Positions 6,812 through 41,567 of a DNA stretch of 41,567 nucleotides are shown one piece after another. The notes under the pieces are model-generated. The model saw nothing but the letters and a program-made list of their open reading frames with translations. It was not told the DNA's origin and searched no databases. A program made the position numbers and the translations under genes. How positions within the stretch are numbered: the stretch's first letter is position 1; each line of letters starts with the position of its first letter. Source of the stretch: a virus; IMG/VR virus record IMGVR_UViG_3300023443_000076, positions 1 through 41,567 of that record. One strand, written 5' to 3'.

Positions 6812-6827
6812 TTCGGGCTCCTTATCC
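6812..6827. repeat. Partial third copy of linker A at the operon convergence
   Basis: These 16 bases match the hairpin's left arm and loop in the 82-bp linker at 7378-7459 and 17600-17681. On the minus strand they follow the last leftward gene, and the flanking bases AACAC are also partly shared. It marks the boundary between the leftward accessory operon and the lysis genes. Confidence 0.6.
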
Positions 6828-6850
6828 CTAGTGTGTTGCTAATTCCCTCC

Positions 6851-7179: not shown

Positions 7180-7383
7180 TTATCCCCCACAATCAACAGA
7201 CAATGGCAAGCTCTGCTCCCAAAATGCTGCCCTTTCATCGGCTTCAATGCTGGCAATATCTTTAATACATGGGTAGCAACAGCTTTCGGTATCTTCGGGC
7301 AGCAACTTTCCGCGCACTTCCTCTTTTCGTTCACGCTTATTAAAAACAAATTTCTTGTTGCAGCATGGACAGATTCGTTTCAT
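7180..7383 (-). CDS. Zinc-ribbon-like small protein
   Basis: The 67-residue protein opens MKRICPCCNKKFVF and has a second Cys pair (ESCCYPC at about residues 34-39), so a four-Cys zinc knuckle is likely. The start codon and its AAGGAG site lie inside linker A (7378-7459), which is shared with an unrelated gene at 17676. About 86 bases with no evident gene separate it from the next gene downstream. Confidence 0.55.
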   Translation of the reverse strand: MKRICPCCNKKFVFNKRERKEEVRGKLLPEDTESCCYPCIKDIASIEADERAAFWEQSLPLSVDCGG

Positions 7384-7459
7384 ACCTGCTCCTTATCATT
7401 AATCACTTATATAACAGTCGGATAAAAAGACCCTTCGGGCTCCTTATCCTTGGTGTTAT
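7378..7459 (-). repeat. Linker A, left copy (82 bp, inverted relative to 17600-17681)
   Basis: All 82 bases match the reverse complement of 17600-17681. Read in the direction of the genes it begins ATAAC (containing the stop of the upstream gene), has a 13-bp hairpin with GAA loop and one bulged T, then GTTAT, a spacer and AAGGAG, and ends in the start codon of the next gene. Two G-U pairs in the hairpin fit only the coding sense. Confidence 0.95.
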
Positions 7460-7623
7460 GCGCCTAGTATTAAGTAGCTAGACATCAATCCTGCCCCTGC
7501 CGCGCTCATTATGTTTAACATTCCTGGCGCTGCGTGCTTTCCACTACCAAGCAATATGCACATCTCCGGCAATATGTAGCCAAATGTGAGAAACCCAGCA
7601 ATACCTAAAATTTGTAATATCAT
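7456..7623 (-). CDS. Small hydrophobic membrane protein between linkers A and B
   Basis: The ATG at 7623 follows GGAG and encodes 55 residues, nearly all hydrophobic (MILQILGIAGFLTFGYILPE and AAGAGLMSSYLILGA), suggesting two membrane segments. Its TAA is the first part of linker A. In the other operon the same two linkers enclose a different, soluble gene (17407-17598), so this gene looks like an exchangeable cassette. Confidence 0.6.
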   Translation of the reverse strand: MILQILGIAGFLTFGYILPEMCILLGSGKHAAPGMLNIMSAAGAGLMSSYLILGA

Positions 7624-7644
7624 TTTATTCTCCAATTCTTGATG

Positions 7645-7697
7645 TATAACAAATCATTCGTAGTGGACTGCTACGCAGCCCCTCAATTCAAACGTTA
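7645..7697 (-). repeat. Linker B, left copy (53 bp, inverted relative to 17331-17383)
   Basis: 52 of 53 bases match the reverse complement of 17331-17383. The ends are TAAC and GTTA. The core is a 7-bp hairpin, GGGCTGC-GTA-GCAGTCC with one G-T pair. The stop codon of the upstream gene (7688-7690) lies inside it. Size and shape resemble integron attC sites. Confidence 0.93.
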
Positions 7698-8107
7698 CGC
7701 GGCTTGTGATAACACAATTTACAAATATGCCGGAGCCCATCAGCGTTTCTCTTATCTGCATAGAAATATTCTTTGTTAGCAGGATGATTACTCCAACAAC
7801 GATGGCAAAACTTCATTCCCGATTCGGGCGCAGGTTTTTCAGGACGAATCTCTCGTTCCAACTCTGCATGAACGCGGATTTGCTCTAGCTCATACTGGAC
7901 CGCATCAAGTTCTTTCCTATGCTGATGCAATCTCTCGGTGACCTTTACGCACTGGCTATCAAGTTTATTTATCGTATCTTGTGCCTTTAGCCGTGTATGT
8001 ATTTGGAGCAGATTCCCTCTAGAGACAAGACCATTCAGCGTTAGCATTTCGGCTTTGATCTCCTGCTCTCTTTCGTATAAATCGACTTTGTGCTGTTGTT
8101 CAATCAT
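7688..8107 (-). CDS. Coiled-coil protein with C-terminal zinc motif
   Basis: The 139-residue protein has a long charged helical region (about residues 1-90) and a C-terminal module FCHRCWSNHPANKEYFYADKR followed by LRHICKLCYH, a CxxC plus CxxC zinc-binding pattern with the tail common in phage HNH-associated proteins. The ATG at 8107 has GGAG upstream; the TTG at 8122 is less likely. It ends within linker B. Confidence 0.6.
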   Translation of the reverse strand: MIEQQHKVDLYEREQEIKAEMLTLNGLVSRGNLLQIHTRLKAQDTINKLDSQCVKVTERLHQHRKELDAVQYELEQIRVHAELEREIRPEKPAPESGMKFCHRCWSNHPANKEYFYADKRNADGLRHICKLCYHKPRNV

Positions 8108-8124
8108 CGCCTTTGTCTCCAACG

Positions 8125-8424
8125 TTATAAATCTAACTCTTTTATTGCTTCGTCAGTCAAACAAATCTCTGCCGACTCATTTTTCCCAATTCCTACGATT
8201 GCAGAATGCCACTCTCCATGCCGCTGTGTTTTTATTGAAGCAGGTTGAAAGCCGTTGCGCTTAATAAGCGCTTTTAACAACTCTATATCGCTATAATCAT
8301 CCAAACCCCTTGGCGAATAACAATCCGGTGAATGGGATGATTGTTTATGCAGTCGGTGGCACAAGTTGCAGCGCCCATCAAGAGTGAATCGAGCTACATT
8401 TTTACAGTCTGTACATTTAATCAT
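8125..8424 (-). CDS. Small zinc-finger-like protein
   Basis: The 99-residue protein starts MIKCTDCKNVARFTLDGRCNLCHRLH, a CxxC-x13-CxxC zinc ribbon followed by an acidic helical C-terminal half. GGAGG precedes the ATG inside a recurrent intergenic linker. No specific function recognised. Confidence 0.55.
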   Translation of the reverse strand: MIKCTDCKNVARFTLDGRCNLCHRLHKQSSHSPDCYSPRGLDDYSDIELLKALIKRNGFQPASIKTQRHGEWHSAIVGIGKNESAEICLTDEAIKELDL

Positions 8425-8448
8425 CGTCCGTTACCTCCAATATTATGA

Positions 8449-8700
8449 TTATAACTTCTCAATAACTTCTTTGTTCCCAGCTAATACTTGTCGTAGGTCG
8501 TTAGCGCAATCTCGATAGGCTGCAGCCATGGTGTTTCCGCTCAGGCCCATTAGCCTGGCCGTTTCTCTCCACATTTTTGCCAGCTCTATCATGTCTTCCA
8601 TAGAACAACCCGGTGAACAGGACGATTTAATAATTGCCACCATCTCTGGTCCAGTGATATTTAATTTCTTTGCCTCTTCAAAAAATTCTTCGCGAGTCAT
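8449..8700 (-). CDS. Hypothetical helical protein
   Basis: The 83-residue protein (MTREEFFEEAKKLNITGPEM...) is helical with two Cys (SSCSPGC). A strong GGAGG site lies 8 bases before the ATG within the repeated linker. No family was recognised. Confidence 0.5.
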   Translation of the reverse strand: MTREEFFEEAKKLNITGPEMVAIIKSSCSPGCSMEDMIELAKMWRETARLMGLSGNTMAAAYRDCANDLRQVLAGNKEVIEKL

Positions 8701-8718
8701 CGCCCGTCACCTCCAACG

Positions 8719-8904
8719 TTATGTGCCAGCAACTATATTGGCCATCTCAAGCAAAATAACCGCTGTTGCCTGCTCTAACTTGCTCGCAAGACTGGCCATC
8801 TTTACGTTTGTTTGTTCTCTGAATAGCATTTGCTCTATATTTTTTGGTGGATAAATCCATTGAAATTCAGCATTTATTTTTACCATTAGCTCTACATCTT
8901 TCAT
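8719..8904 (-). CDS. Hypothetical small protein
   Basis: The 61-residue protein starts at an ATG overlapping the stop of the upstream regulator (ATGA at 8901-8904), so translation is coupled. It reads MKDVELMVKINAEFQWIYPP and has a helical C-terminal half. No family was recognised. Confidence 0.5.
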   Translation of the reverse strand: MKDVELMVKINAEFQWIYPPKNIEQMLFREQTNVKMASLASKLEQATAVILLEMANIVAGT

Positions 8905-9047
8905 AATGACTCCTTCTTATTTATCTTGTCCTGGATAAGATTTCTAATCAGCACAGCAAACGTGTTACCTGTCCTCTTCTTTTCTTCTTCAAGCCATTCC
9001 CGCTGATGGGCCGTAATAGTGATAGGTGCTAATGGTTTTACTGTCAT
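8901..9047 (-). CDS. Ribbon-helix-helix (Arc-like) DNA-binding protein
   Basis: The 48-residue protein shows the ribbon-helix-helix layout: a short strand (KPLAPITI), helix A (AHQREWLEEEKKRTG) and helix B (TFAVLIRNLIQDKINK) joined by GN. Such proteins bind DNA as dimers and often repress their own promoter. It is the first gene of the leftward operon and faces the early rightward operon across a 132-base divergent region, a good place for an autoregulator of both. Confidence 0.65.
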   Translation of the reverse strand: MTVKPLAPITITAHQREWLEEEKKRTGNTFAVLIRNLIQDKINKKESL

Positions 9048-9179
9048 ATCTGCCTCATTATTAATTAGGGATAACTGAATCGTAACGCATTGTTAATATA
9101 AATTCAATAGCTAAATATATTGATTTCATAAGATTTATATATTAATATGAATGCATCACTCGAGAACAGGAATATAGAA
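9048..9179. promoter_or_regulatory. Divergent early promoter region
   Basis: AT-rich DNA between the two early operons. Rightward, TTGATT (9120-9125) and TAATAT (9143-9148) are 17 bases apart. This places transcription start near 9155, downstream of the ATG at 9147, and supports the start at 9180. Dyads that could bind the ribbon-helix-helix protein include TAAC-N5-GTTA at 9083-9095. The leftward promoter is not clear. Confidence 0.55.
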
Positions 9180-9383
9180 ATGGACAGTAAATGCAGGATC
9201 GACGCAGATCTCAACCAGCACCAAGAAGAGCAGGATCAGGGATTTTGTAAAGTATGCGACACATTGCTAACTGAAGAATCATTCCTAGATTTCAGCATCC
9301 CAGTCTGTACTGAATGTGAAGCGGATGGATATTGGACCGGCAATGTCTTTATAGATGCTGGCAATAACGCACATATATTTTAA
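9180..9383 (+). CDS. Small zinc-binding protein, first rightward early gene
   Basis: The 67-residue protein has FCKVCDTLLTEESF followed by PVCTECEADGYW, two CxxC pairs that would hold one zinc. The ATG at 9180 follows ACAGGA; an earlier in-frame ATG at 9147 overlaps the predicted -10 box. Function unknown; first early genes often act on the host. Confidence 0.55.
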   Translation: MDSKCRIDADLNQHQEEQDQGFCKVCDTLLTEESFLDFSIPVCTECEADGYWTGNVFIDAGNNAHIF

Positions 9384-9393
9384 GGAGCAAGAA

Positions 9394-9648
9394 ATGGGAA
9401 TTTATAGAAAAAACAAACGCACAAAGGAAAAAGCATTTAATCATTACACGGCCATATTGAATGAGTTGAAATGGCAACAATTCGGACAATTGATTCAAGA
9501 ATGGAACAGAGGTAGAAAACTCATGCCTGAGTACACTCTTAAATCAGCAGTAGATCGTGTAGAGCGTGAAAACAACATAAAGATATTGCCAGTAGTAATG
9601 GAAGACATTAAAGACTTTATAGCGCTGACATTAGCTAAAGGAGAATAA
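9394..9648 (+). CDS. Hypothetical early protein
   Basis: The 84-residue protein (MGIYRKNKRTKEKAFNHYTA...) has a basic N-terminus and helical body. AAGGAG stands 6 bases before the ATG at 9394. It ends LAKGE, where the last codons double as the ribosome site for the next gene. Confidence 0.5.
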   Translation: MGIYRKNKRTKEKAFNHYTAILNELKWQQFGQLIQEWNRGRKLMPEYTLKSAVDRVERENNIKILPVVMEDIKDFIALTLAKGE

Positions 9649-9651
9649 AAA

Positions 9652-9924
9652 ATGAGTAGCTACGAATTTAAAACAATTATCGGTGAGGACTTGGACGTTA
9701 AGGTTATTTTCGATTATCAGCCGGCAGAGCCAGCAAGCTATCCGCAAGGTGAAAACGGCTATCCTGGCTGTGATGCTGAAATTCAGAATATGTCTGTAAT
9801 GGCTGGAAAATTGGAATGGGGCGGCAAAGAAATCACTGATTGTCTCAACAAAGAATGGCTTGACCGAATTGAAATTGAATGCTTTGAACAAATCGAACTA
9901 TCGTCATATGAGCAAGGAGAATAG
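9652..9924 (+). CDS. Hypothetical early protein
   Basis: The 90-residue acidic protein (MSSYEFKTIIGEDLDVKVIF...) has a beta-strand-like N-terminal half and contains PASYPQGENGYPGCDAEI, typical of small conserved phage proteins of unknown role. It ends SYEQGE, with the GGAGAA serving the next gene. Confidence 0.5.
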   Translation: MSSYEFKTIIGEDLDVKVIFDYQPAEPASYPQGENGYPGCDAEIQNMSVMAGKLEWGGKEITDCLNKEWLDRIEIECFEQIELSSYEQGE

Positions 9925-9926
9925 AA

Positions 9927-10166
9927 ATGACTAAATTAAATTTGTGGGCTTATAAGTGTGTACTTAATGGATATGATTTTGGTGTGACACAGGCTTCATC
10001 AGGAACGGATATGACTCCTAGAGGATGGGTTTTTATTAAAGAACTAGAAGAAGATATTGATAATGAAGATGTAGCTAAAAAAATAGCTGCAGCGGAAAAT
10101 TCTACAAAAGCAGCAAAGCGTGAACTACTAATGAGAGCGCTTAAAGACCTGGAAGATGAGCTATGA
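9927..10166 (+). CDS. Hypothetical early protein
   Basis: The 79-residue protein (MTKLNLWAYKCVLNGYDFG...) has a charged helical C-terminal half. Its stop overlaps the next ATG by four bases. No family was recognised. Confidence 0.45.
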   Translation: MTKLNLWAYKCVLNGYDFGVTQASSGTDMTPRGWVFIKELEEDIDNEDVAKKIAAAENSTKAAKRELLMRALKDLEDEL

Positions 10167-10270
10167 GACATAAAACAGGAGAATTCCTATCTATGCTGGG
10201 GTGCTGTCTTATCGCTTCAGTAGGGACAATAGCCTTTTTAATTCTATTTATTGACAGTTTACCGGAGTAA
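10163..10270 (+). CDS. Single-pass membrane micropeptide
   Basis: A 35-residue peptide with one transmembrane segment (LGCCLIASVGTIAFLILFI). It starts in an ATGA overlap with the previous gene and ends directly before the annealing-protein ATG, so it fills the gap exactly. Role unknown. Confidence 0.5.
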   Translation: MRHKTGEFLSMLGCCLIASVGTIAFLILFIDSLPE

Positions 10271-11068
10271 ATGAATATGAACGATATAGTAAAAAAAGAA
10301 GATATTACTAAAAATGATACATCGGCAATTATTCAGATCATTGACCGGGCTGCAACTGATCCTAATGTTGATATAGATAAAATGGAACGCTTGTTGAATA
10401 TGCAAGAACGCATCTTCGATAAGAACGCGGAAATGGCTTTTAACACCGCTATGTCTGCAGTACAGAAAGAAATGCCTCGCATCCAGCGTGAGTCTGAAAA
10501 CAAACAGACTCGTAGTAAGTATGCCAAACTTGAAGCAATCAACAGGGTTTTAGTGCCAATCTATACAGAATATGGGTTTGCTTTGTCATTTGGCACGGGA
10601 GATACCCAAACCGAAGGCTGGCAGCGTATTACTTGTATCGCCTCTCATGTGAGCGGATTCAGTAAAGATTTCTTTGTTGATTTGCCGATTGATAATGAAG
10701 GGATGCAGGGCAATGCAAACAAAACAAAAATGCACGGCGCTGGTTCCACTATGAGTTATGGTCGCCGTTATTTAACCATCTTAATTTTTAACATTTCCAT
10801 TGCTGATGAAGACAACGATGGAAACATCTCAGCAACTGGCCTTCTTGACAAGATGTTTTCTCATAACACAGTTTTGCGCGATAACTTGCCAACTATTCTG
10901 TGTATCAAAGAAGGCATCAGCTCAGGCGATTTAAGCTCAGCAAAAGAGGCATGGAACGAACTGCCAGAACAAGAGCAAATGGCTTTGTGGGTCGCAACAA
11001 CTAAAGGCGGCATATTCACTACTGACGAACGCAAAACCATTAAGAGCCAAGAATGGAGTGAAGCATAA
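10271..11068 (+). CDS. ERF-family single-strand annealing protein
   Basis: The 265-residue protein promotes strand annealing in phage recombination. Diagnostic features are an N-terminal helical part (MQERIFDKNAEMAFNTAM), YAKLEAINRVLVPIYTEYGF (about residues 80-100) and the signature GAGSTMSYGRRYLT followed by DEDNDGN (about residues 155-185). GGAG stands 5 bases upstream of the ATG. It is grouped with an SSB-like protein, NinB and endonuclease VII, consistent with a recombination-dependent replication module. Confidence 0.9.
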   Translation: MNMNDIVKKEDITKNDTSAIIQIIDRAATDPNVDIDKMERLLNMQERIFDKNAEMAFNTAMSAVQKEMPRIQRESENKQTRSKYAKLEAINRVLVPIYTEYGFALSFGTGDTQTEGWQRITCIASHVSGFSKDFFVDLPIDNEGMQGNANKTKMHGAGSTMSYGRRYLTILIFNISIADEDNDGNISATGLLDKMFSHNTVLRDNLPTILCIKEGISSGDLSSAKEAWNELPEQEQMALWVATTKGGIFTTDERKTIKSQEWSEA

Positions 11069-11124
11069 ACCAATCAATCAAAGAGCTTATGCAAGGCTAG
11101 TTATTAAGTAACGCTAGGAGAGAA

Positions 11125-11334
11125 ATGATGATTATTAAAGAAGGAAGGATACATATTGAAGATGGGAAATTCTTCCTATATGGGTTTCATTTTAAAGGCA
11201 ATAGTAATTTTGATGATATGCGCAAAGACATGATCTCGTACATATATAACATCTTAACAGAGGAGAACTTTGTGCCTATTAACACTGTAAATGTTTCTGA
11301 TGGGTACCAAGAACCAGGAAAGGAGAATAAATAA
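11125..11334 (+). CDS. Hypothetical protein, paralogue 1 of a tandem pair
   Basis: The 69-residue protein shares a scaffold with the next gene: I-x-x-G-x-I-x-I-x-D early, F-x-F-H near residue 22, then K-x-D-x4-Y-x3-N. It ends GKENK with GGAGAATAAATAATG leading into the paralogue. No family was recognised. Confidence 0.5.
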   Translation: MMIIKEGRIHIEDGKFFLYGFHFKGNSNFDDMRKDMISYIYNILTEENFVPINTVNVSDGYQEPGKENK

Positions 11335-11525
11335 TGATTGAGAAAACAGGTCAGATAACAATTAATGATGATGAAGTGTTGGTTAGTGACTTTGTATTTC
11401 ATTATGACGGCTATGGGTCTATGGAATTAATTAAACAGGATTTAAAAGAATATGTTTGCAATCTTATAGATAGTGCTGAAGGTTATGAGGATTTATTCGG
11501 AGTTATTAGTCAGGAGAATAAATAA
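11334..11525 (+). CDS. Hypothetical protein, paralogue 2 of a tandem pair
   Basis: The 63-residue protein (MIEKTGQITINDDEVLV...FVFHYDGYG) is a diverged copy of the preceding gene, with similar length and the same spacing of shared residues. It ends SQENK and reuses the same end-plus-ribosome-site linker, suggesting duplication of a gene together with its linker. Confidence 0.5.
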   Translation: MIEKTGQITINDDEVLVSDFVFHYDGYGSMELIKQDLKEYVCNLIDSAEGYEDLFGVISQENK

Positions 11526-11758
11526 TGTGTGAATGGGAATTACAAGAGGAATCGGATCAACAGCGCTTAGATACGCTAGGCGGTACGTTCTGGCTGTCAA
11601 ATGATATAAAGGATGTATGGACCCTAGTTAAAGTCACAGCAGACGCTGCAGGCCCTAATGAAAGCAAGCCGCTTAGGTTTGCTACAGAGCTACGGGCTAA
11701 AGACTGGGTAAAATATCTGCAGGAAAAACAGACTAAAAGCCCAAGAGTAATCAGTTAA
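11525..11758 (+). CDS. Hypothetical early protein
   Basis: The 77-residue protein (MCEWELQEESDQQRLDTLGG...) starts in the TAATG overlap with the previous gene. It has a central KVTADAAGPNESKP segment and a helical end. No family was recognised. Confidence 0.45.
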   Translation: MCEWELQEESDQQRLDTLGGTFWLSNDIKDVWTLVKVTADAAGPNESKPLRFATELRAKDWVKYLQEKQTKSPRVIS

Positions 11759-11797
11759 TTATTTGATTGAATTCTTAATAGAGAAGGAGAGATAGAG

Positions 11798-12058
11798 ATG
11801 ACACCAAATGACATAGAAATATTAATTCATTGCCATGTATGCCCAGAGCCACATCCGAGAGCAAAGTTCCCAGCAGTTAGTGAAACGCTGAGATCACTAG
11901 AGGTTAATGGGCTGATTGAGCAGAGATTAGGTGACGGATATCACACAACAGAAAGAGGAAAAGCTCATATTGAACAACTCTGTTCTACGCCATGGCCAAC
12001 TCAAGTATGGGTAAATGCTAATGGTGGAATTATCTTAAATTCTGACAAGCCTTTTTAG
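11798..12058 (+). CDS. Winged-helix-like small phage protein
   Basis: The 86-residue protein begins MTPNDIEILIHCHVCPEPHP, then AVSETLRSLEVNGLIEQRL and YHTTERGKAHIEQL. The order helix, recognition-like helix, then a beta wing with TERG resembles small winged-helix proteins widespread in siphophages and podophages near replication genes. DNA binding is inferred. Confidence 0.6.
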   Translation: MTPNDIEILIHCHVCPEPHPRAKFPAVSETLRSLEVNGLIEQRLGDGYHTTERGKAHIEQLCSTPWPTQVWVNANGGIILNSDKPF

Positions 12059-12063
12059 TAGGG

Positions 12064-12092
12064 TTTTATTTTTAGCCATAGTTTTATATAAT
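12064..12092 (+). promoter_or_regulatory. Candidate sigma70 promoter before the replication genes
   Basis: A consensus -10 TATAAT lies at 12087-12092. The -35 (about 12064-12070, TTTTAT/TTTATT) is poor at 16-17 bases spacing. The predicted start falls at the beginning of the structured leader at 12099. Confidence 0.5.
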
Positions 12093-12098
12093 ACTTAT

Positions 12099-12153
12099 GC
12101 GGCGCAAGGGATTGATCCCCCTTGTTCACGCCTACCCCTTTCGGGCAAGCCGC
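12099..12153 (+). ncRNA. Structured leader RNA upstream of replication initiator
   Basis: GCGGC (12099-12103) pairs with GCCGC (12149-12153). It encloses a CAAGGG/CCCTTG hairpin (12105-12110 with 12119-12124) and a CCC-GGG hairpin (about 12136-12145), a compact three-way junction. It is followed by a short leader and the initiator gene at 12195. It could be a cis-regulator of replication or a small RNA. Confidence 0.45.
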
Positions 12154-12194
12154 GTTTCAACCAACTGGAGGGGCACAATTAGAAAGGGAAATCA

Positions 12195-12902
12195 ATGCAT
12201 TATTACAAATTCAATATTGCAGACTGGAGTTTAGGAACCTCTCACCTTACGTTAGAGGAAGAATCTATTTACTTCAGGCTGATCAATCATTATTACGACA
12301 CTGAAAGCCCTATCCCCTTGGAAACCCAGTCGGTTTTCCGTAAGTTACGTTTCGGTTCTTGCTCGGATATTGCCTTATCTATTCTTGATGAATTCTTTAA
12401 AAAAACCGATAAAGGTTTTGTTCATCTTCGTTGTGAAGAAATGTTGAAAGAATATCGCAAAACTGTATCTAAAAATAAGAAGAACGGGGCTAAAGGCGGC
12501 AGACCTAAGAAGGACGCGGCTTTAGAGGAATCCCAAGGTGAACCCAGTGGGTTCCCAGTGGAATCCCAAACGGAACCCAAAGATAACCCTAACCAAGAAC
12601 CATTAACCATTAACCAAGAACCACTATTAAAAGATAAGGCAAAAGCTAAACGCTTTGTGCCACCCACCCAAGAGGAAGCAGGTTTATATTTCCTTGAGCG
12701 TGGCCACCATAGCGCAAGCCAAGAAGCTGAAAAGTTTATTGATTTCTATGAATCGAAAGGCTGGTTAGTTGGCAAGGCAAAAATGAAGGATTGGAAAGCT
12801 GCCATTAGAAACTGGATGAAAAATAACTTCGGAGGCGGGAATGCGAAAAGTTCAGGACGTGATCGGACAAGCACTTACAACATCGCAGACACAGACTGGT
12901 AG
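12195..12902 (+). CDS. DUF1376 (YdaU-type) replication initiation protein
   Basis: The 235-residue protein opens with the DUF1376 signature (MHYYKFNIADWSLGTSHLTL, then EEESIYFRLINHYYDTESPI), found in phage replication proteins that take the place of lambda O. Residues about 90-150 are a Lys/Pro/Glu-rich linker with repeats at the DNA level (see 12527-12623), and the C-terminal part (EKFIDFYESKGW...WKAAIRNWM) is a conserved helicase-loading-type end. It overlaps the next gene by 62 bases, like O and P modules. Confidence 0.85.
   Translation: MHYYKFNIADWSLGTSHLTLEEESIYFRLINHYYDTESPIPLETQSVFRKLRFGSCSDIALSILDEFFKKTDKGFVHLRCEEMLKEYRKTVSKNKKNGAKGGRPKKDAALEESQGEPSGFPVESQTEPKDNPNQEPLTINQEPLLKDKAKAKRFVPPTQEEAGLYFLERGHHSASQEAEKFIDFYESKGWLVGKAKMKDWKAAIRNWMKNNFGGGNAKSSGRDRTSTYNIADTDW
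12527..12623. repeat. Iteron-like repeats inside the initiator gene, candidate origin
   Basis: GGAATCCCAA occurs at 12527-12536 and 12560-12569, and AACCAAGAACCA at 12591-12602 and 12612-12623, with TTAACCATT between. They lie in the linker of the DUF1376 gene, as lambda iterons lie in O. An origin here is an inference from analogy. Confidence 0.4.
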
Positions 12903-13266
12903 CCAGGAAGTCAAACAAGAAGACAAGCAGATTGTTAACATGGTTTATGCCAGATTAAAAACCGTCTTCGGTAATAAATACAATATCGCTTTCCCTACGG
13001 AGAAGGACGAGAGGCTATCAAAGAGGGAGTGGCAGAGGGATATTATCAGTTTCTCCCTAGAAGAGCTTGAGCGAGGTTTCAGGGCGCTTAAATCAAGTGA
13101 TATTGAATGGCCGGACATTAAATCTTTCCTCTCACTCTGCAAAACCGCAGTTAAAGATCCTTCCCATAAATTATTCGCGTTGCCCAAACCTTGTAATATC
13201 AATCGAGAAGAAGGCAAAAAGAGATCAGCAGAATTGATGAAGATGATGAAAGGAGAAGAGGGATGA
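12841..13266 (+). CDS. Lambda P-like helicase loader
   Basis: The 141-residue protein has the P-family pattern VNMVYARLKTVFGNKY, then SKREWQRDIISFSLEELERG and DIEWPDIKSFLSLCK (about residues 35-100), a region that recruits or loads the replicative helicase. GGAGG precedes the ATG, which lies within the initiator gene. It ends MMKGEEG, and the sequence for this end plus its ribosome site recurs after the next gene. Confidence 0.75.
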   Translation: MRKVQDVIGQALTTSQTQTGSQEVKQEDKQIVNMVYARLKTVFGNKYNIAFPTEKDERLSKREWQRDIISFSLEELERGFRALKSSDIEWPDIKSFLSLCKTAVKDPSHKLFALPKPCNINREEGKKRSAELMKMMKGEEG

Positions 13267-13871
13267 AAGTGTTAATAGCATGTGAATATAGCGGGAGAGT
13301 TCGGGACGCATTTATTAAGCGCGGCCATGATGCTATTAGTTGTGATATATTGCCGTCCGATCAGCTTGGGCCGCATTACCAAGGGAGCGTACTAGATATT
13401 TTAAATGATGGCTGGGATTTGATGATCGCTCATCCTCCATGCACAAGGCTCACAAATGCTGGGGTGCGCTGGTTGAAAGCCCCGCCCAAAGGGAAGACGA
13501 TTTCAGGAATGCAGGCCGAGCTTGAAGAAGCTGCAGCGTTTTACATGGCTTTAAGAGATTCTGATATTCCAAAAAAAGCGATAGAGAATCCTGTTATGCA
13601 CTGTTACGCCAGAGAAATTATTAATCCCAGCAAAAGACAGATTGTTCAGCCTTGGTGGTTTGGTGAGAAGGCTTTTAAGGCGACAGGGTTTGAACTTATT
13701 GGGCTTCCCGATTTAACCCCTACAAACAAGCTTTCTCCACCAAAGAAAGATACAGAAGAGCATAAACAGTGGTCTTGGATTCACAGAATGCCGCCCAGCC
13801 CTGACCGATGGAAACTAAGAAGTACAACATTTCAAGGTATAGCAGACGCTATGGCCAACCAATGGGGATAA
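13263..13871 (+). CDS. Short cytosine-C5 methyltransferase-like protein
   Basis: The 202-residue protein has a Rossmann-type start (MKVLIACEYSGRVRDAFIKR), HPPCTRLTNAGVRWL (about residues 57-71, like methyltransferase motif IV with the PC pair) and IENPVMH (about 110, like motif VI). Full-size enzymes carry a target-recognition domain that is absent here, so activity is uncertain. Proteins of this type are common in phage early regions. It starts in an ATGA overlap with the loader and is bracketed by two copies of the linker ATGAAAGGAGAAGAG, suggesting later insertion. Confidence 0.65.
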   Translation: MKVLIACEYSGRVRDAFIKRGHDAISCDILPSDQLGPHYQGSVLDILNDGWDLMIAHPPCTRLTNAGVRWLKAPPKGKTISGMQAELEEAAAFYMALRDSDIPKKAIENPVMHCYAREIINPSKRQIVQPWWFGEKAFKATGFELIGLPDLTPTNKLSPPKKDTEEHKQWSWIHRMPPSPDRWKLRSTTFQGIADAMANQWG

Positions 13872-13887
13872 TGAAAGGAGAAGAGAC

Positions 13888-14103
13888 ATGAGTGAAAAAT
13901 TAGATTCTCATCAAGCGTGGACACTAGGTGAAATGCTTTTAGACGATATCGAATATGTCTTCATGAATCTTGACCATGTTGTTCGATTCAGCACTAGGCC
14001 AGGGTGGGGCAATCACTATCCTTCAGAGCTGGCAAAGGACAGTGTTAAGGAAGCAGATAAAGCAATACTAAAAGCTATGGGAATTAATAAAAGAGAGAAA
14101 TAG
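13888..14103 (+). CDS. Hypothetical protein
   Basis: The 71-residue acidic protein (MSEKLDSHQAWTLGEMLLDD...) uses the second copy of the AAAGGAGAAGAG ribosome site. This suggests it originally followed the helicase loader directly. No family was recognised. Confidence 0.5.
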   Translation: MSEKLDSHQAWTLGEMLLDDIEYVFMNLDHVVRFSTRPGWGNHYPSELAKDSVKEADKAILKAMGINKREK

Positions 14104-14175
14104 TGTAAATAAACCTTGAGATAAGTGAAGCAGTGTGAAATAATCAGTCCATAAATTAATTAACGTGTAAGCAAT

Positions 14176-14349
14176 ATGACGGCATCTAAGAAAGCAAAAG
14201 GAATGGGTATGAAATCTCTGAGAGAGGTATCGATAATTACGGGAGTTTGTGGCCGCACACTGATTAACTGGTATCACAACAAGCCTGATTTATTCCATGC
14301 TGTATGCCTTGGATGCTTACAGATTAAAGAATCTAACAATAATAAATAA
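14176..14349 (+). CDS. Small helix-turn-helix protein
   Basis: The 57-residue protein contains SLREVSIITGVCGRTLINWY (about residues 13-32), a clear helix-turn-helix, followed by HNKPDLFHAVCLGC. Similar small HTH proteins with W-x-x-x-K-P-x-L-F are widespread in phages and are probable transcription factors. The preceding 72 bases hold no recognised gene; no clear ribosome site is seen. Confidence 0.65.
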   Translation: MTASKKAKGMGMKSLREVSIITGVCGRTLINWYHNKPDLFHAVCLGCLQIKESNNNK

Positions 14350-14382
14350 TGTTTTATTACCCGGGGTGACGGGAGAGAAGAC

Positions 14383-14816
14383 ATGAGTGAAGTTGAAACT
14401 GTAGAAGTAGACGGCCTAGAATGCAGAATCATTAAATTCTACGGAGAGAAAAAGGTATTTTATAAAGTTCTCGGCGAATGGAAACGCAGCACAAAATCAG
14501 TCCGTCTTATAGAGGCAGCGTTTAAGGCTAAGAAGCGCGGAAAACTCAAGGCAGCAGCACAGAAAGCTTTGAGTAGAAAGAAATACGAAAGCCGCCAATT
14601 AATAGCATGTAAAGGGACTGGGAAAAAAGTACTAGATGCTCTTGCTAAATCCGATAAGCCATTAACAGCTGCAGAGCTTATGTTTAAGACGCAGCGTACA
14701 AAAAAGCTATTTATGAAGCGAAGGCGCGTCTTGGTCCTGATGTAATCAGAAGAGCTGAATCTCGGATATGTGAAATTAGCGAGCGGCGATGCATGACCTG
14801 GGAGCTGGTAGCATGA
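14383..14816 (+). CDS. Putative DNA-binding protein, probable -1 frameshift at 14700-14706
   Basis: The zero frame gives 120 residues ending at 14745 with an unnatural KKLFMKRRRVLVLM tail. At 14700-14706 the heptamer A AAA AAG stands in the correct register for -1 slippage. The -1 frame then continues for 36 protein-like residues (AIYEAKARLGPDVIRRAE...) to a TGA at 14814-14816 that overlaps the endonuclease ATG at 14813 by four bases, giving 144 residues. The joined region (VLDALAKSDKPLTAAELM, then the slip site) reads as a winged-helix-like domain whose last helices are restored by the shift. Either programmed frameshifting or a one-base error in the A-run explains this. Confidence 0.6.
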
Positions 14817-15178
14817 ACGATACCAAGTGGCAGCTGAAAACTAGAGAAGTCCCAGGATTCCGTAGCAAATTATTGAAGCGCCAGGGTGGCAAATGTGGTT
14901 TATGTTATGAGCCTGTAGACCGCGATCAAGCCTCTCTCGACCACGACCACACTACAGGCCAAGTCCGAGCAGTTTTACACGATTACTGCGACACTATTGA
15001 AGGGCTTATTAACCATGCGATTCGGAGGACTGGGATAGACCGAATAGTGTTTCTTGAAGCGCTAATCAATTACTGGAAACAAGAACACGACAACATGCCA
15101 TTGCATCCAAATCACAAAACCAAGAAATCTCGGAAGCGGTATGAAAAGAGAGTCAAACAGGAGCAGGATCATGTCTAG
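14813..15178 (+). CDS. Endonuclease VII-like recombination endonuclease
   Basis: The 121-residue protein cuts branched DNA or acts as a His-Me finger nuclease. The His-Me finger is visible: CGLCYEP (first zinc pair, about residues 24-27), LDHDHTTGQVRAVLH (catalytic His), then CDTIEGLINHA with one further Cys where two are usual in the family. The basic tail HKTKKSRKRYEKRVK is typical. The ATG overlaps the stop of the frameshifted upstream frame. Confidence 0.8.
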   Translation: MNDTKWQLKTREVPGFRSKLLKRQGGKCGLCYEPVDRDQASLDHDHTTGQVRAVLHDYCDTIEGLINHAIRRTGIDRIVFLEALINYWKQEHDNMPLHPNHKTKKSRKRYEKRVKQEQDHV

Positions 15179-15590
15179 GGAAATTAAGTTCAGAGCTTGG
15201 AGCATTGCACGGTTAGAAATGATCGATATTAGCGAAACTACAAATAAGGCAACAATGGTTTGGTGGCCACAGTTAAGAGCTTGCGAATACGATCGCAATG
15301 GAAAGCAGATAACTATTCCATTGATGCAATATACCGGCCTAAAGGACAAGAACGGAGTGCCCATCTGTCAGGGTGACATTGTAAAAACAACGGCTTTGTC
15401 TAACGATCATCATCAAAGAGGGGCTACCGATGTTCTTATTGTTAAGGAATTTATGGGGAATACCTGTATATGTTTCTCCGGCTGCGACACTGGAATTCCT
15501 TTATACCCGTTCAATGTAAGCCATTGTATCGAAGTAATCGGCAACATTTACGAGCATAAACACCTTCTGGAGAACGGTCATGATGAATAA
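15171..15590 (+). CDS. YopX-family protein
   Basis: The 139-residue protein opens MSREIKFRAWSIARLEMI and contains LMQYTGLKDKNGVPICQGDIV (about residues 58-78) and IEVIGNIYEHKHLL, the three conserved blocks of the YopX family. This is a common phage accessory protein of unknown biochemical role. The start is the ATG at 15171 after AGGAGC; longer in-frame starts lie inside the endonuclease gene. Confidence 0.85.
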   Translation: MSREIKFRAWSIARLEMIDISETTNKATMVWWPQLRACEYDRNGKQITIPLMQYTGLKDKNGVPICQGDIVKTTALSNDHHQRGATDVLIVKEFMGNTCICFSGCDTGIPLYPFNVSHCIEVIGNIYEHKHLLENGHDE

Positions 15591-15705
15591 ATTCGAGATT
15601 TTTGTTATTGGTGCTGCGGTTTTAATAATGTTGTTTTTTGTCGTAGCGTCTATCGTGCTGCCATTTATTAAACTTGAGAAATTCTCGGAGAGTGATGATG
15701 AGTGA
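15580..15705 (+). CDS. Single-pass membrane micropeptide
   Basis: A 41-residue peptide with a strong transmembrane segment (VIGAAVLIMLFFVVASIVLPF) and an acidic end. It starts inside the end of the YopX gene and overlaps the next gene. Unknown role. Confidence 0.5.
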   Translation: MMNKFEIFVIGAAVLIMLFFVVASIVLPFIKLEKFSESDDE

Positions 15706-15907
15706 ATGGATCAGCGTTGAGGATCGGATACCTGAGAAGGCTATGCCTTGCATGGTTTATATAGCTGACCGAGGCTCGGTAATGTTAACCAATTTTAACG
15801 GTGACTTCGCCCTAGTTCGTGTTGGTTATCCAACTGGGTTCAGCGCACACGGAGTAACCCACTGGATGTCCCTCCCAGAACCACCAAGGAGCAAAGACGA
15901 TGAGTAA
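15698..15907 (+). CDS. DUF551-family protein
   Basis: The 69-residue protein has WISVEDRIPEKAMPCMVYI at the start and THWMSLPEPP at the end, the two hallmarks of DUF551. CGGAG lies 7 bases before the chosen ATG; ATG at 15695 is an alternative. Function unknown, common in phage accessory regions. Confidence 0.8.
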   Translation: MSEWISVEDRIPEKAMPCMVYIADRGSVMLTNFNGDFALVRVGYPTGFSAHGVTHWMSLPEPPRSKDDE

Positions 15908-16148
15908 TCCCATGACTTACGCTGAAGAACAAGTGTTAAAAGCTTATCGCAAGGATAAGCCTGCAGTCCCTGGCAACTTGCCACAAGGCAAAAAGGCGAC
16001 AACTAGGATGCTTACGCCGACACCTAAAGAGACTGATGAATATGATCATGCTGTTAGTAAATCTGAGGCGAGAGGGTATGAAAACGATTCAGAGAAATAT
16101 CTTATAGGTCGGTATGAGCATTTGTATACTGACAAAAGGATTGGATAA
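15900..16148 (+). CDS. Hypothetical protein
   Basis: The 82-residue hydrophilic protein (MSNPMTYAEEQVLKAYRKDK...) uses AAGGAG and overlaps the previous gene by 8 bases. It is the last normal-sized gene before the structured RNA stretch. No family was recognised. Confidence 0.5.
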   Translation: MSNPMTYAEEQVLKAYRKDKPAVPGNLPQGKKATTRMLTPTPKETDEYDHAVSKSEARGYENDSEKYLIGRYEHLYTDKRIG

Positions 16149-16155
16149 AAGTTTA

Positions 16156-16238
16156 TGGGAGGCTGGGTGTCAAGACAGGGGGCAATTACCCTCGCATGGC
16201 CAAGCTCAGCGGAGAGGGTAGCTCCTTCTCTCCTCCCA
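16156..16238 (+). ncRNA. Structured RNA domain 1
   Basis: TGGGAGG (16156-16162) pairs with CCTCCCA (16232-16238) to close an 83-nt domain. Inside are possible GGG/CCC and AGCT/AGCT helices. It begins 8 bases after a stop codon and contains no good ORF. Confidence 0.4.
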
Positions 16239-16246
16239 CCTAATTA

Positions 16247-16301
16247 TGGCTGCATGGCGCTTGAACTCGCTCGTCCTCGCGTCCTCTGCAGCCACCTTTT
16301 T
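16247..16301 (+). terminator. Long stem with U-run, terminator or small RNA end
   Basis: A perfect 8-bp stem TGGCTGCA (16247-16254) / TGCAGCCA (16287-16294) is followed by CCTTTTT. The 32-base loop can pair internally (GCG/CGC). It would end a transcript carrying domain 1, or partly terminate the early operon. Confidence 0.5.
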
Positions 16302-16318
16302 AACATAAGGAGTAACGT

Positions 16319-16387
16319 ATGAGCTGGGCAGAGAGTTTTGCAATAGTGGGATTAGCAGTTGTAGTTTTACTTTTTCAGTTGGTATAA
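16319..16387 (+). CDS. Membrane micropeptide 1
   Basis: A 22-residue peptide with one transmembrane segment (FAIVGLAVVVLLFQLV) behind AAGGAG. The sequence ATAAGGAGTA before it recurs before the next micropeptide, so it looks like an inserted unit with a duplicated ribosome site. Confidence 0.45.
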   Translation: MSWAESFAIVGLAVVVLLFQLV

Positions 16388-16396
16388 GGAGTATGT

Positions 16397-16474
16397 ATGA
16401 GCATTACATTAAAAGTTCTTGTAGCATTATCACCGGCATTGTTTGGACTATTCTTGGTACTGACATTCGGGTAA
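16397..16474 (+). CDS. Membrane micropeptide 2
   Basis: A 25-residue peptide (MSITLKVLVALSPALFGLFL...) with one transmembrane segment. AAGGAG stands 5 bases upstream of the ATG at 16397. The overlapping 62-residue frame from 16393 has poor spacing and runs through the structured RNA, so it is not accepted. Confidence 0.45.
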   Translation: MSITLKVLVALSPALFGLFLVLTFG

Positions 16475-16481
16475 AGGTTTT

Positions 16482-16563
16482 GGCTGTTGCGGCGTGGAAG
16501 AGGCTGATCCTTAGTAGGTCTAATGACACGCAGGCTGACCGGCTTTTCGCAGCAGCCTTTTTT
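16482..16563 (+). ncRNA. Structured RNA domain 2 with terminator-like end
   Basis: GGCTGTTGCG (16482-16491) pairs fully with CGCAGCAGCC (16548-16557), counting one G-U pair, and is followed by six T. Within the 56-nt interior GCGTG (16492-16496) pairs with CACGC (16527-16531), stacking directly on the first stem. It is too elaborate for a simple terminator and may be a small RNA ending in its own terminator. Confidence 0.55.
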
Positions 16564-16572
16564 AATAATAGT

Positions 16573-16731
16573 CTGTATTGAGTGTATATGTGGTGGTGTT
16601 AGTGTTGTTTGGTTGATATGACTTGGCAAGTCGGCTGTGCTATAGCGAATGTCCATGAATGGTAGCCAACAGGATAGACAGCCCCTCCAAACTCGGCCGC
16701 ACTGGCGCCCCTTCATATACATTCAATACAG
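16573..16731 (+). ncRNA. 159-nt structured RNA closed by an 18-bp stem
   Basis: CTGTATTGAGTGTATATG (16573-16590) pairs along its whole length with 16714-16731, the only non-Watson-Crick pair being a G-U that works on the + strand only. Nested inside are AGTG/CACT (16601-16604, 16700-16703), GTTTGG/CCAAAC (16607-16612, 16687-16692), the hairpin GACTT-GGC-AAGTC (16620-16632) and an arm GGCTGT-G-CTAT / ATAG-ACAGCC (16633-16643, 16674-16683) with one bulge. No good ORF is present. It matches no RNA class I know. Confidence 0.65.
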
Positions 16732-16760
16732 ATTAAGGAATTAAACTAGAGGAATGAATG

Positions 16761-16937
16761 ATGGCAACTACACCAGAAGAATTTTATAAGCAAATGCATG
16801 AATTACATGAAAGGTTTGACGGAGATGAAGAGGTGGCGCATGTAATGATGGATCGCTTGATAGGAGAGGTTCTTGTGGAGCTTGGCTATCAAGAAGGAAT
16901 AGATGTCTTTCGTAATCAAGCCAAATGGTATGCGTAA
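16761..16937 (+). CDS. Hypothetical protein, related to gene at 21943
   Basis: The 58-residue protein (MATTPEEFYKQMHELHERFD...) ends GYQEGIDVFRNQAKWYA. The gene at 21943-22119 encodes exactly the same length and ends GYKGVVKAWTDCSQKVGFWYA, so they are distant paralogues of a small phage family. AGAGGA stands 7 bases before the ATG at 16761. Confidence 0.55.
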   Translation: MATTPEEFYKQMHELHERFDGDEEVAHVMMDRLIGEVLVELGYQEGIDVFRNQAKWYA

Positions 16938-16960
16938 TAATTAAATCATAGGAATAAGTA

Positions 16961-17281
16961 ATGTCAAAACGACTAGTGGTAAAAACCGGTACTTACATTA
17001 AAGACGGGCAGGAGAAGGGAGAATATACACGCTTGGGTGTAATGATGGACGGAGATAACGGCCCTTATCTGCTGCTTGACCCATGTGTGAATTTGGCAGG
17101 CTGTTTGACTAAACAAAACATGATGAATCACGGTAAGGGCGGCAAGCCGCGATCTAGCCTAATGGTAAGTGTATTTGAAGAGGATGGACAGCAGCAGCGC
17201 CCACAAGCTCCGCAACAAGCAAGACCAGACCCACAAGCACCTCCGGCAGGCGATTTCCCAAACGATCCAATTCCATTTTGA
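16961..17281 (+). CDS. SSB-like single-stranded DNA-binding protein
   Basis: The 106-residue protein has a beta-rich N-terminal part (VVKTGTYIKDGQEKGEYTRL, GPYLLLDPCVNLAGCL), a Gln/Pro-rich linker (about residues 77-93) and an acidic tip DFPNDPIPF that closely resembles the SSB C-terminal tail that recruits partner proteins. It likely coats ssDNA for the ERF protein. Two palindromes follow its stop. Confidence 0.75.
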   Translation: MSKRLVVKTGTYIKDGQEKGEYTRLGVMMDGDNGPYLLLDPCVNLAGCLTKQNMMNHGKGGKPRSSLMVSVFEEDGQQQRPQAPQQARPDPQAPPAGDFPNDPIPF

Positions 17282-17287
17282 GAGGCT

Positions 17288-17320
17288 GTTCATTAATAAT
17301 GAACATTCATTATTAGTGAA
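17288..17320. promoter_or_regulatory. Two tandem palindromes, possible operator
   Basis: GTTCATTAATAATGAAC (17288-17304) is a perfect 17-bp palindrome, followed directly by the near-palindrome TTCATTATTAGTGAA (17306-17320). They precede linker B and have no T-run, so an operator for a dimeric regulator is more likely than a terminator. Confidence 0.45.
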
Positions 17321-17330
17321 CGATGATTCA

Positions 17331-17383
17331 TAACGTTTGAATTGAAGGGCTGCGTAGCAGTCCACTACGAATGATTTGTTATA
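17331..17383 (+). repeat. Linker B, right copy (53 bp)
   Basis: Inverted copy of 7645-7697 with one difference (A/G at position 16). It has the same TAAC/GTTA ends and GGGCTGC-GTA-GCAGTCC hairpin. It precedes the gene at 17407, which takes the place held by a membrane protein in the other operon. Confidence 0.93.
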
Positions 17384-17406
17384 TTACTGTTATGGAGGAT
17401 AGGTAA

Positions 17407-17598
17407 ATGTTAAACGGGTTAAAAGTAAAAATTGGTGAAGTAGTAAGATTTTCGATGTTTGAAAACTGGACATTTAAGAAAGATAGTGAGCATAAAATAA
17501 CTGATGTAAGCGAAATGGACAAACACGGATGGTTTGATATTAAAGTTGAAGGCTATAGAGGCTGGCATTGCTGCTTGCATTTTAGCCAGATCAAGTAA
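17407..17598 (+). CDS. Hypothetical protein between linkers B and A
   Basis: The 63-residue protein (MLNGLKVKIGEVVRFSMFEN...) looks like a small beta-barrel-type protein. A GGAGGATAGG ribosome site precedes it. Its stop is immediately followed by linker A. Unrelated in sequence to the membrane protein in the equivalent place at 7456-7623. Confidence 0.5.
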   Translation: MLNGLKVKIGEVVRFSMFENWTFKKDSEHKITDVSEMDKHGWFDIKVEGYRGWHCCLHFSQIK

Positions 17599-17599
17599 T

Positions 17600-17681
17600 A
17601 TAACACCAAGGATAAGGAGCCCGAAGGGTCTTTTTATCCGACTGTTATATAAGTGATTAATGATAAGGAGCAGGTATGAAA
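17600..17681 (+). repeat. Linker A, right copy (82 bp)
   Basis: Identical, in inverse orientation, to 7378-7459. Perfect conservation, including the hairpin, the 3' spacer, the ribosome site and the ATG with two more bases, while the genes on both sides differ, points to recent exchange or selection on the whole element. Confidence 0.95.
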
Positions 17682-17867
17682 ATCAATCAAAACCCACAAT
17701 TTCAACCAATAACCATAACCTTTGAGACAGCGGAAGAAGCCGATCTATTTTGGGGGTTCGTTAGTGGCGGATCGGGCAAATTAAACGCGGATGAAAATGA
17801 GCAACTAGACGGGCTGAGAAACGATATTTCAAACTGGTTTAGTAATCAGGCTCAGCTAGGCGGATAG
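17676..17867 (+). CDS. Hypothetical phage protein
   Basis: The 63-residue protein (MKINQNPQFQPITITFETAE...) continues EEADLFWGFVSGGSGKL, a pattern seen in small phage proteins of unknown role. Its ribosome site and ATG belong to linker A. Confidence 0.55.
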   Translation: MKINQNPQFQPITITFETAEEADLFWGFVSGGSGKLNADENEQLDGLRNDISNWFSNQAQLGG

Positions 17868-41384: not shown

Positions 41385-41567
41385 TGGCTGATGAATTATT
41401 TACTGGCCTGAGAGAAGCAGGCCGTGCGGTAGGTGCAGGACTTACTGCTTTTACTACGGGCGTTCCTCTTCCAGAGGTGCAGCGACAACGAGGAGAAGCT
41501 AGACTAGGGCTGCAGACATCTAGGGATGAAGCACGGATTAACTCTCTTGTGCGAGGCGCTCAACAGC
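41384..41567 (+). CDS. Internal virion / ejection protein, 5' part (continues at base 1)
   Basis: The ATG overlaps the previous stop (TAATG at 41382-41386) and opens MADELFTGLREAGRAVGAGL. Forty bases precede the terminal repeat, and the frame joins that of the gene ending at 1214 to give 417 residues. See the 3' part for role. Confidence 0.85.
   Translation, partial: MADELFTGLREAGRAVGAGLTAFTTGVPLPEVQRQRGEARLGLQTSRDEARINSLVRGAQQ
41424..41567. repeat. Terminal direct repeat, right copy
   Basis: Identical to bases 1-144 and in the same reading frame of the ejection protein gene, which shows the sequence closes on itself. Confidence 0.95.

Follow-up and report, generated by a model that had tools for sequence, protein, structure and literature searches.

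Mosaicism in phage genomes is usually ascribed to homologous or illegitimate recombination, and T4-type phages carry promoter early stem-loop linkers. Clusters of attC sites lacking integron integrases (CALINs) have been described in phages by Qi et al. 2023 (PMC9892861), where attCs lie between small phage genes without an integrase gene, methyltransferases are found among the cassettes and three attCs are present in Tetrasphaera phage TJE1. Six phage sites, two of them from TJE1, were assayed in that study and the integrase IntI1 recombined all but one P12002L site (PMC9892861). For integron integrases the recombining substrate is attC folded from its bottom strand, and this sets the orientation for expression of cassettes from the promoter Pc (PMC11023631). 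Here we describe a phage contig of 41,567 nucleotides (IMG/VR record IMGVR_UViG_3300023443_000076, positions 1 to 41,567; hereafter the window) in which two linkers, A and B, recur as inverted pairs in divergent early operons. Linker B is interpreted as an integron attC, with its two copies marking cassette-like junctions in these operons, and linker A as probably a diverged attC-like linker; we place the probability of this reading at roughly 0.75. Phage attC clusters were already known from Qi et al. 2023, and the new part is the inverted orientation of the sites relative to the genes.

The window is a circular contig with a 144-bp terminal repeat (1-144 is the same as 41424-41567), where a leftward and a rightward early operon diverge at about 9.1 kb. 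The original prediction, made by a model from the letters alone, held that an identical 82-bp linker A and a 53-bp linker B with one mismatch occur once in each operon, and a repeat search of the window agrees: the arms of A are located at 7378-7459 and 17600-17681 (82 nt, 100% identity) and those of B at 7645-7697 and 17331-17383 (53 nt, 98%, one mismatch). These are the sole inverted repeats of at least 25 nt within the window and are far beyond chance expectation. The predicted order of B, one small gene, A and the next gene was borne out by the gene positions, with both operons read outward as gene, B, small gene, A and next gene. TAAC/GTTA ends were seen around a hairpin in both linkers and, as had also been noticed, the stop codons of the upstream genes in the leftward operon lie inside the linker ends (TGA 7690-7688 in B and TAA 7458-7456 in A). 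The two enclosed genes are unrelated, as had been stated (hydrophobic on the left, 63 residues long on the right), and matched no PHROG or Pfam family. An Rfam scan of the window gave no relevant match, and no match was obtained for the exact linker cores in IMG/VR or for the right operon by blastn against INPHARED.

Two covariance models of our own, rather than the published attC model, were used to examine the linkers. Model R1 was built from 20 attCs of bacterial integrons adjoining integron integrase genes, and model R2 from the sites of other phages with the window and the related contigs L004 and L005 excluded. Both copies of B are recognised. The left copy (7644-7700) has its top strand on the + strand while the operon runs on the - strand, and scores 33.0 bits with R1 (E = 9e-7) and 38.3 bits with R2; the right copy (17328-17384) has its top strand on the - strand with the operon on the + strand, and scores 23.4 bits with R1 and 33.2 bits with R2 (E = 5e-6). 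As a positive control, the three TJE1 sites were found by R1 at 23.4, 19.0 and 13.4 bits, and nothing beyond these sites was reported at E up to 3 in the 230 kb of the three phages searched. The best background match among 45 phage records with a related terminase was a partial one of 15.5 bits. R1 misses the sites in H101 (PH101 of Qi et al.) and P12002L and is therefore not universal. The predicted resemblance to attC sites thus holds for B in the covariance-model check, and it does not extend to A, which was not recognised by these models.

The architecture of B agrees with the model scores. Its core boxes follow the RYYYAAC ... GTTRRRY pattern with TAAC/GTTA in both copies, and the boxes of the left copy, GTATAAC/GTTACGC, have one deviation each, where the TJE1 site at 1016-1075 has GTATAAC/GTTATGC. 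The L boxes are paired, an extra base is present on the L'' side and the spacers are unpaired, so that B shares with the cassettes of class 1 and chromosomal bacterial integrons the R'' box, spacers, L'' and L' boxes, R' box and the extra base in the left arm of the stem. Judged by its sequence and predicted structure, linker B is an integron-type site. The linkers might instead act at the RNA level as intercistronic hairpins (attenuators, processing or stability elements) whose likeness to attC is incidental, and the mRNA strand does fold better than its complement (-19.7 against -14.7 kcal/mol for A, and -12.6 against -7.4 and -15.1 against -6.7 kcal/mol for B) while each B copy is overlapped by one weak terminator-like match. 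However, the unpaired spacers and boxes of B match those of bacterial attCs and are needless for a hairpin alone, and the right operon has one terminator match against 1.3 expected from shuffles; we consider this explanation improbable overall, and it may still apply to A. The stem-loop linkers of T4-type phages are likewise repeated hairpins between small early genes, but a search inside A and B detected no sigma-70-like promoter and B carries attC boxes.

Sites related to B are found in other phages. A relative of the gene preceding the right B, with 44% identity, is encoded by contig L005, whose leftward operon has attCs at 40.7 and 15.7 bits with R1 together with two seen by eye only. Among the phages of Qi et al. 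(PMC9892861), MW202573 has B-like sites and at least five sites in all. Structural genes identify the window, L004, L005 and MW202573 as phages. Further viral contigs were picked by a half-site pattern that is blind to gene direction, and R1 attCs were found in 22 of 25 of them; some contigs in this set may be misclassified or prophage-borne, and a terminase from the tested family is seen in only a few. Many contig pairs share mainly or only blocks of about 50-70 bp, with 80-98% identity, that coincide with attC sites. The relatives of B frame many different genes in different phages, a result that had been set beforehand as a test, and a cassette system is supported because of this. In addition, one cassette gene is common to contigs L196, L203 and L212 with differing flanks: L196 and L203 have in common a single block of 311 bp, consisting of the gene and its attC and ending at the AAC/GTT core, and the homology with L212 ends at the R' core after the shared gene. 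The swap direction of a simple IntI cassette was considered for the shared units and misfits some of them. The closest terminase relatives of the window have early regions unrelated to its own, and for this reason an empty site could not be read from them.

The original prediction likened the locus to a cassette layout, which is right in that B-type sites frame different genes; it did not notice that B runs against the direction of the genes, in contrast to a standard integron array. The coding strand beside B is - on the left and + on the right, as supported by the PHROG matches of genes 7688-8122 and 16961-17281, and both B copies lie on the opposite strand. The same inverted arrangement was observed in two relatives, in MW202573 and in most of the sampled viral arrays. 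Gene strands were called by codon statistics, which replaced a longest-open-reading-frame (ORF) call that had misread L005. Among phage sites, 45 are inverted, 19 conventional and 11 undecided (including one of the two window sites), which gives 45 of 64 callable sites inverted, and the bacterial integron loci have 5 inverted, 39 conventional and 7 undecided sites (5 of 44 callable). Fisher's test gives p = 1e-9 per site, where sites within an array are non-independent, and p = 0.002 per contig on a manual tally. PHROG matches confirm the strand in eight inverted contigs, whose genes include DNA methyltransferases, a Mom-like protein and a RecE-like exonuclease. In 13 inverted sites the stop codon of the gene is the TTA of the R' box, a feature that describes the layout without proving it since the same would be expected by chance for roughly one in three antisense frames. 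Conventional arrays are also present, in TJE1, L210 and L206. Qi et al. note that directions diverge in P12002L and that the sites of MW202573 have several ORFs between them (PMC9892861), and sites inverted relative to the genes are undescribed in that paper and in the open-access literature searched.

In the L188 locus that was analysed, attCs lie on either strand next to genes running in either direction and every one of them is inverted, as in the window. L188 (IMGVR_UViG_3300049483_000041) is a 33.7-kb viral contig with a terminase match, where no integrase was found and where the whole record gives 16 R1 attC matches at E up to 0.5 on both strands. In the viral contig L206 (IMGVR_UViG_3300001199_000021), a full-length match to an integron integrase (TIGR02249, E = 5e-142) lies next to attCs that are mostly in conventional orientation. 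DNA methyltransferases and a Mom-like modification protein are encoded beside inverted phage attCs at L208 8790-9779, L195 1651-2268 and L185 2794-3186, and such genes are in line with counter-defence cargo. Compared with the phage CALINs of Qi et al. (PMC9892861), the window differs in having one model-recognised attC per operon, divergent operons and inverted sites, whereas TJE1 is conventional. In bacterial integrons the gene and its attC have the same direction and Pc expresses the array; in the window the gene is reversed and the phage operon is the presumed source of expression.

Linker A is a less certain case. Its hairpin and ends account for 51 of the 82 bp of the repeat, and the remaining 31 bp are the leader, ribosome-binding site (RBS) and first two codons (ATGAAA) of the next gene. 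The left hairpin core (7409-7459, + strand), with ATAAC/GTTAT ends, scores 7.8 bits with R1 run unfiltered, and the identical right core (17600-17650, - strand) scores 7.9 bits; the rest of the repeat belongs to gene 7180-7383 on the left (7378-7408, - strand) and to gene 17676-17867 on the right (17651-17681, + strand). These unfiltered R1 alignments run end to end in the orientation of B and take third and fourth place within 12 kb. A partial repeat comprising half of A (6812-6834, - strand; 91% over 23 bp, E = 2e-4) is located 3' of the last gene of the leftward operon. Both 14-bp ends of A surround a different hairpin at 9175-9229 of L004, a distant phage contig with only a few early genes in common with the window, and the stop of the upstream gene lies in the end box. 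A search for the pattern of the A ends gave only L004 in IMG/VR and none in GTDB genomes. This variation between constant ends resembles the variability of attCs, yet two examples do not make a family, and linker A is probably a diverged attC-like linker.

Several observations weigh against our interpretation of the two linkers. The attC models give A no convincing match, with E of about 1 for R1 and no report from R2, and its identity extends 31 bp beyond the hairpin, reaching the following gene, which simple IntI cassette exchange does not predict. It is quite possible, if somewhat short of an even chance, that A is not an attC and instead is a separate hairpin-plus-RBS leader reused before different genes, for which these low scores and the inclusion of the RBS and ATGAAA in the repeat both argue; the L004 site, with its changed hairpin and its upstream stop in the end box as in attCs, and the end-to-end alignments of A in B orientation argue for an attC-like origin. 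CALINs require at least two clustered attCs, taken as within 3 kb in Qi et al. (PMC9892861), and with 9.6 kb separating the two B copies the clustering is not clear, while the absence of a nearby integron integrase agrees with a CALIN. The movement of the enclosed genes is untraceable because they are without relatives. Furthermore, one boundary of the L196/L203 block is on the R'' side, again unpredicted by simple IntI exchange. That boundary, the 82-bp identity of A and an Erf-like annealing protein encoded at 10271-11068 of the window would all fit homologous duplication or gene conversion between the operons by Erf-type annealing, with gene swaps at the linkers being homologous and not site-specific. 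This is a possible account that we do not favour, since the B repeat stops within a few bases of the attC boxes and similar sites occur alone, as attC-sized blocks, in unrelated contigs; such exchange may operate alongside an integrase and leaves the attC nature of the linker unexplained.

The original prediction was correct that no integrase is present: the tyrosine recombinase family PF00589 has no match in the whole record, so there is no intI and no complete integron, and no tyrosine recombinase was seen in most of the inverted contigs. It is conceivable, though we regard it as unlikely, that B is an attC by descent which arrived with genes captured from an integron and is now recombination-inactive, as the lack of an integrase, the half copies and half-sites suggestive of decay and the deviation of box residues outside GTTA from GTTRRRY would allow. 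Against this, the right B differs by one base and the stem and spacers are kept in both copies, one gene has moved from phage to phage with homology breaking at attC boxes, and the TJE1 sites whose boxes are similar (GTATAAC, GTTATGC) have no higher scores and yet TJE1 sites were recombined by IntI1 (PMC9892861). With B read as an integron attC, we infer that an integron integrase from the host or a co-infecting element uses, or has recently used, these sites in trans. Since B is inverted relative to the genes, the strand equivalent to the recombinogenic bottom strand of attC is the mRNA-sense strand. The unit would be a small gene with its own RBS, whose translation may stop at a TAA that the GTTA core provides, and because of this composition units could be inserted, excised or lost, or swapped while the operon is left intact. 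The two copies would then be one type of site attached to different genes, with their similarity maintained by recent transfer or by homologous exchange, the phage having an Erf-like annealing protein. A contribution of homologous exchange or decay is also suggested by the extension of A identity into the following gene, by the half-sites (8119-8127 and 8713-8721) and by the R''-side break of L196/L203.

The arrangement suggests that phages may swap small early genes as integron-like cassettes without an integrase of their own. A recognisable junction site common to unrelated phages, for which the enzyme need not be phage-borne, would offer a specific and testable route for the swapping of early and counter-defence genes. 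The inverted orientation would separate a phage cassette pool from the bacterial pool, and annotation that assumes gene and attC to be co-oriented could miss inverted phage arrays. More tentatively, a separate cassette pool may circulate among phages, with each gene running opposite to its attC and with integrases acting in trans shuffling counter-defence and takeover genes (methyltransferases, Mom and small genes without assigned function) among unrelated phages. If this is true, a reversed cassette would be antisense to Pc, and hence silent, once in a host integron and would be expressed in a phage early operon.

The genes around the linkers are as follows. In the left operon, the gene before B (7688-8122, - strand) probably starts at ATG 8107, has a C-terminal Lar-like stretch (phrog_5558, E = 2.6e-7) and has its TGA inside B; the enclosed gene (7456-7635, - strand) encodes a hydrophobic protein of 55-59 residues and ends in a TAA that reads as TTA in the GTTATGC box of A; and the gene after A occupies 7180-7383 (- strand). 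In the right operon, the gene before B (16961-17281, + strand) matches phrog_37570 (E = 4.7e-24), the enclosed gene (17407-17598, + strand) encodes a soluble protein of 63 residues for which a search found no relatives, and the product of the gene after A (17676-17867, + strand) is unrelated to that of 7180-7383 beyond the starting MK.

Possible R' half-sites were observed elsewhere in the leftward operon. The sequence TAACGTTGG is found at the stops of gene 8719-8904 (8713-8721, - strand) and of gene 8125-8424 (8119-8127, - strand). The motif TAACGTTKG occurs four times, both B copies included, against 0.5 expected, and none of 100 shuffles reaches four. A common leader follows the TAA stop at three successive leftward junctions on the - strand (8105-8128, 8425-8451 and 8698-8721: AACGTTGGAGGTGACGGGCGATG, ATATTGGAGGTAACGGACGATG and AACGTTGGAGACAAAGGCGATG). 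Two of these three junctions resemble R' half-sites fused to an RBS and are perhaps attCs that have lost the hairpin. R2 also gives a match at 8600-8724 (+ strand; 19.7 bits, E = 0.009) with a 60-base insertion, lying within the start of gene 8449-8700, and this is possibly a half-site plus chance. In the rightward operon, an A+T-rich palindrome (TGTTCATTAATAATGAACA ... TTCATTATTAGTGAA) at 17282-17330, between gene 16961-17281 and the right B, is a possible operator or terminator. The regions 16150-16310 and 16475-16570, which have no Rfam match, are non-coding and strongly self-complementary, flank tiny hydrophobic ORFs at 16320-16387 and 16399-16472 and are possible structured RNAs or terminators.

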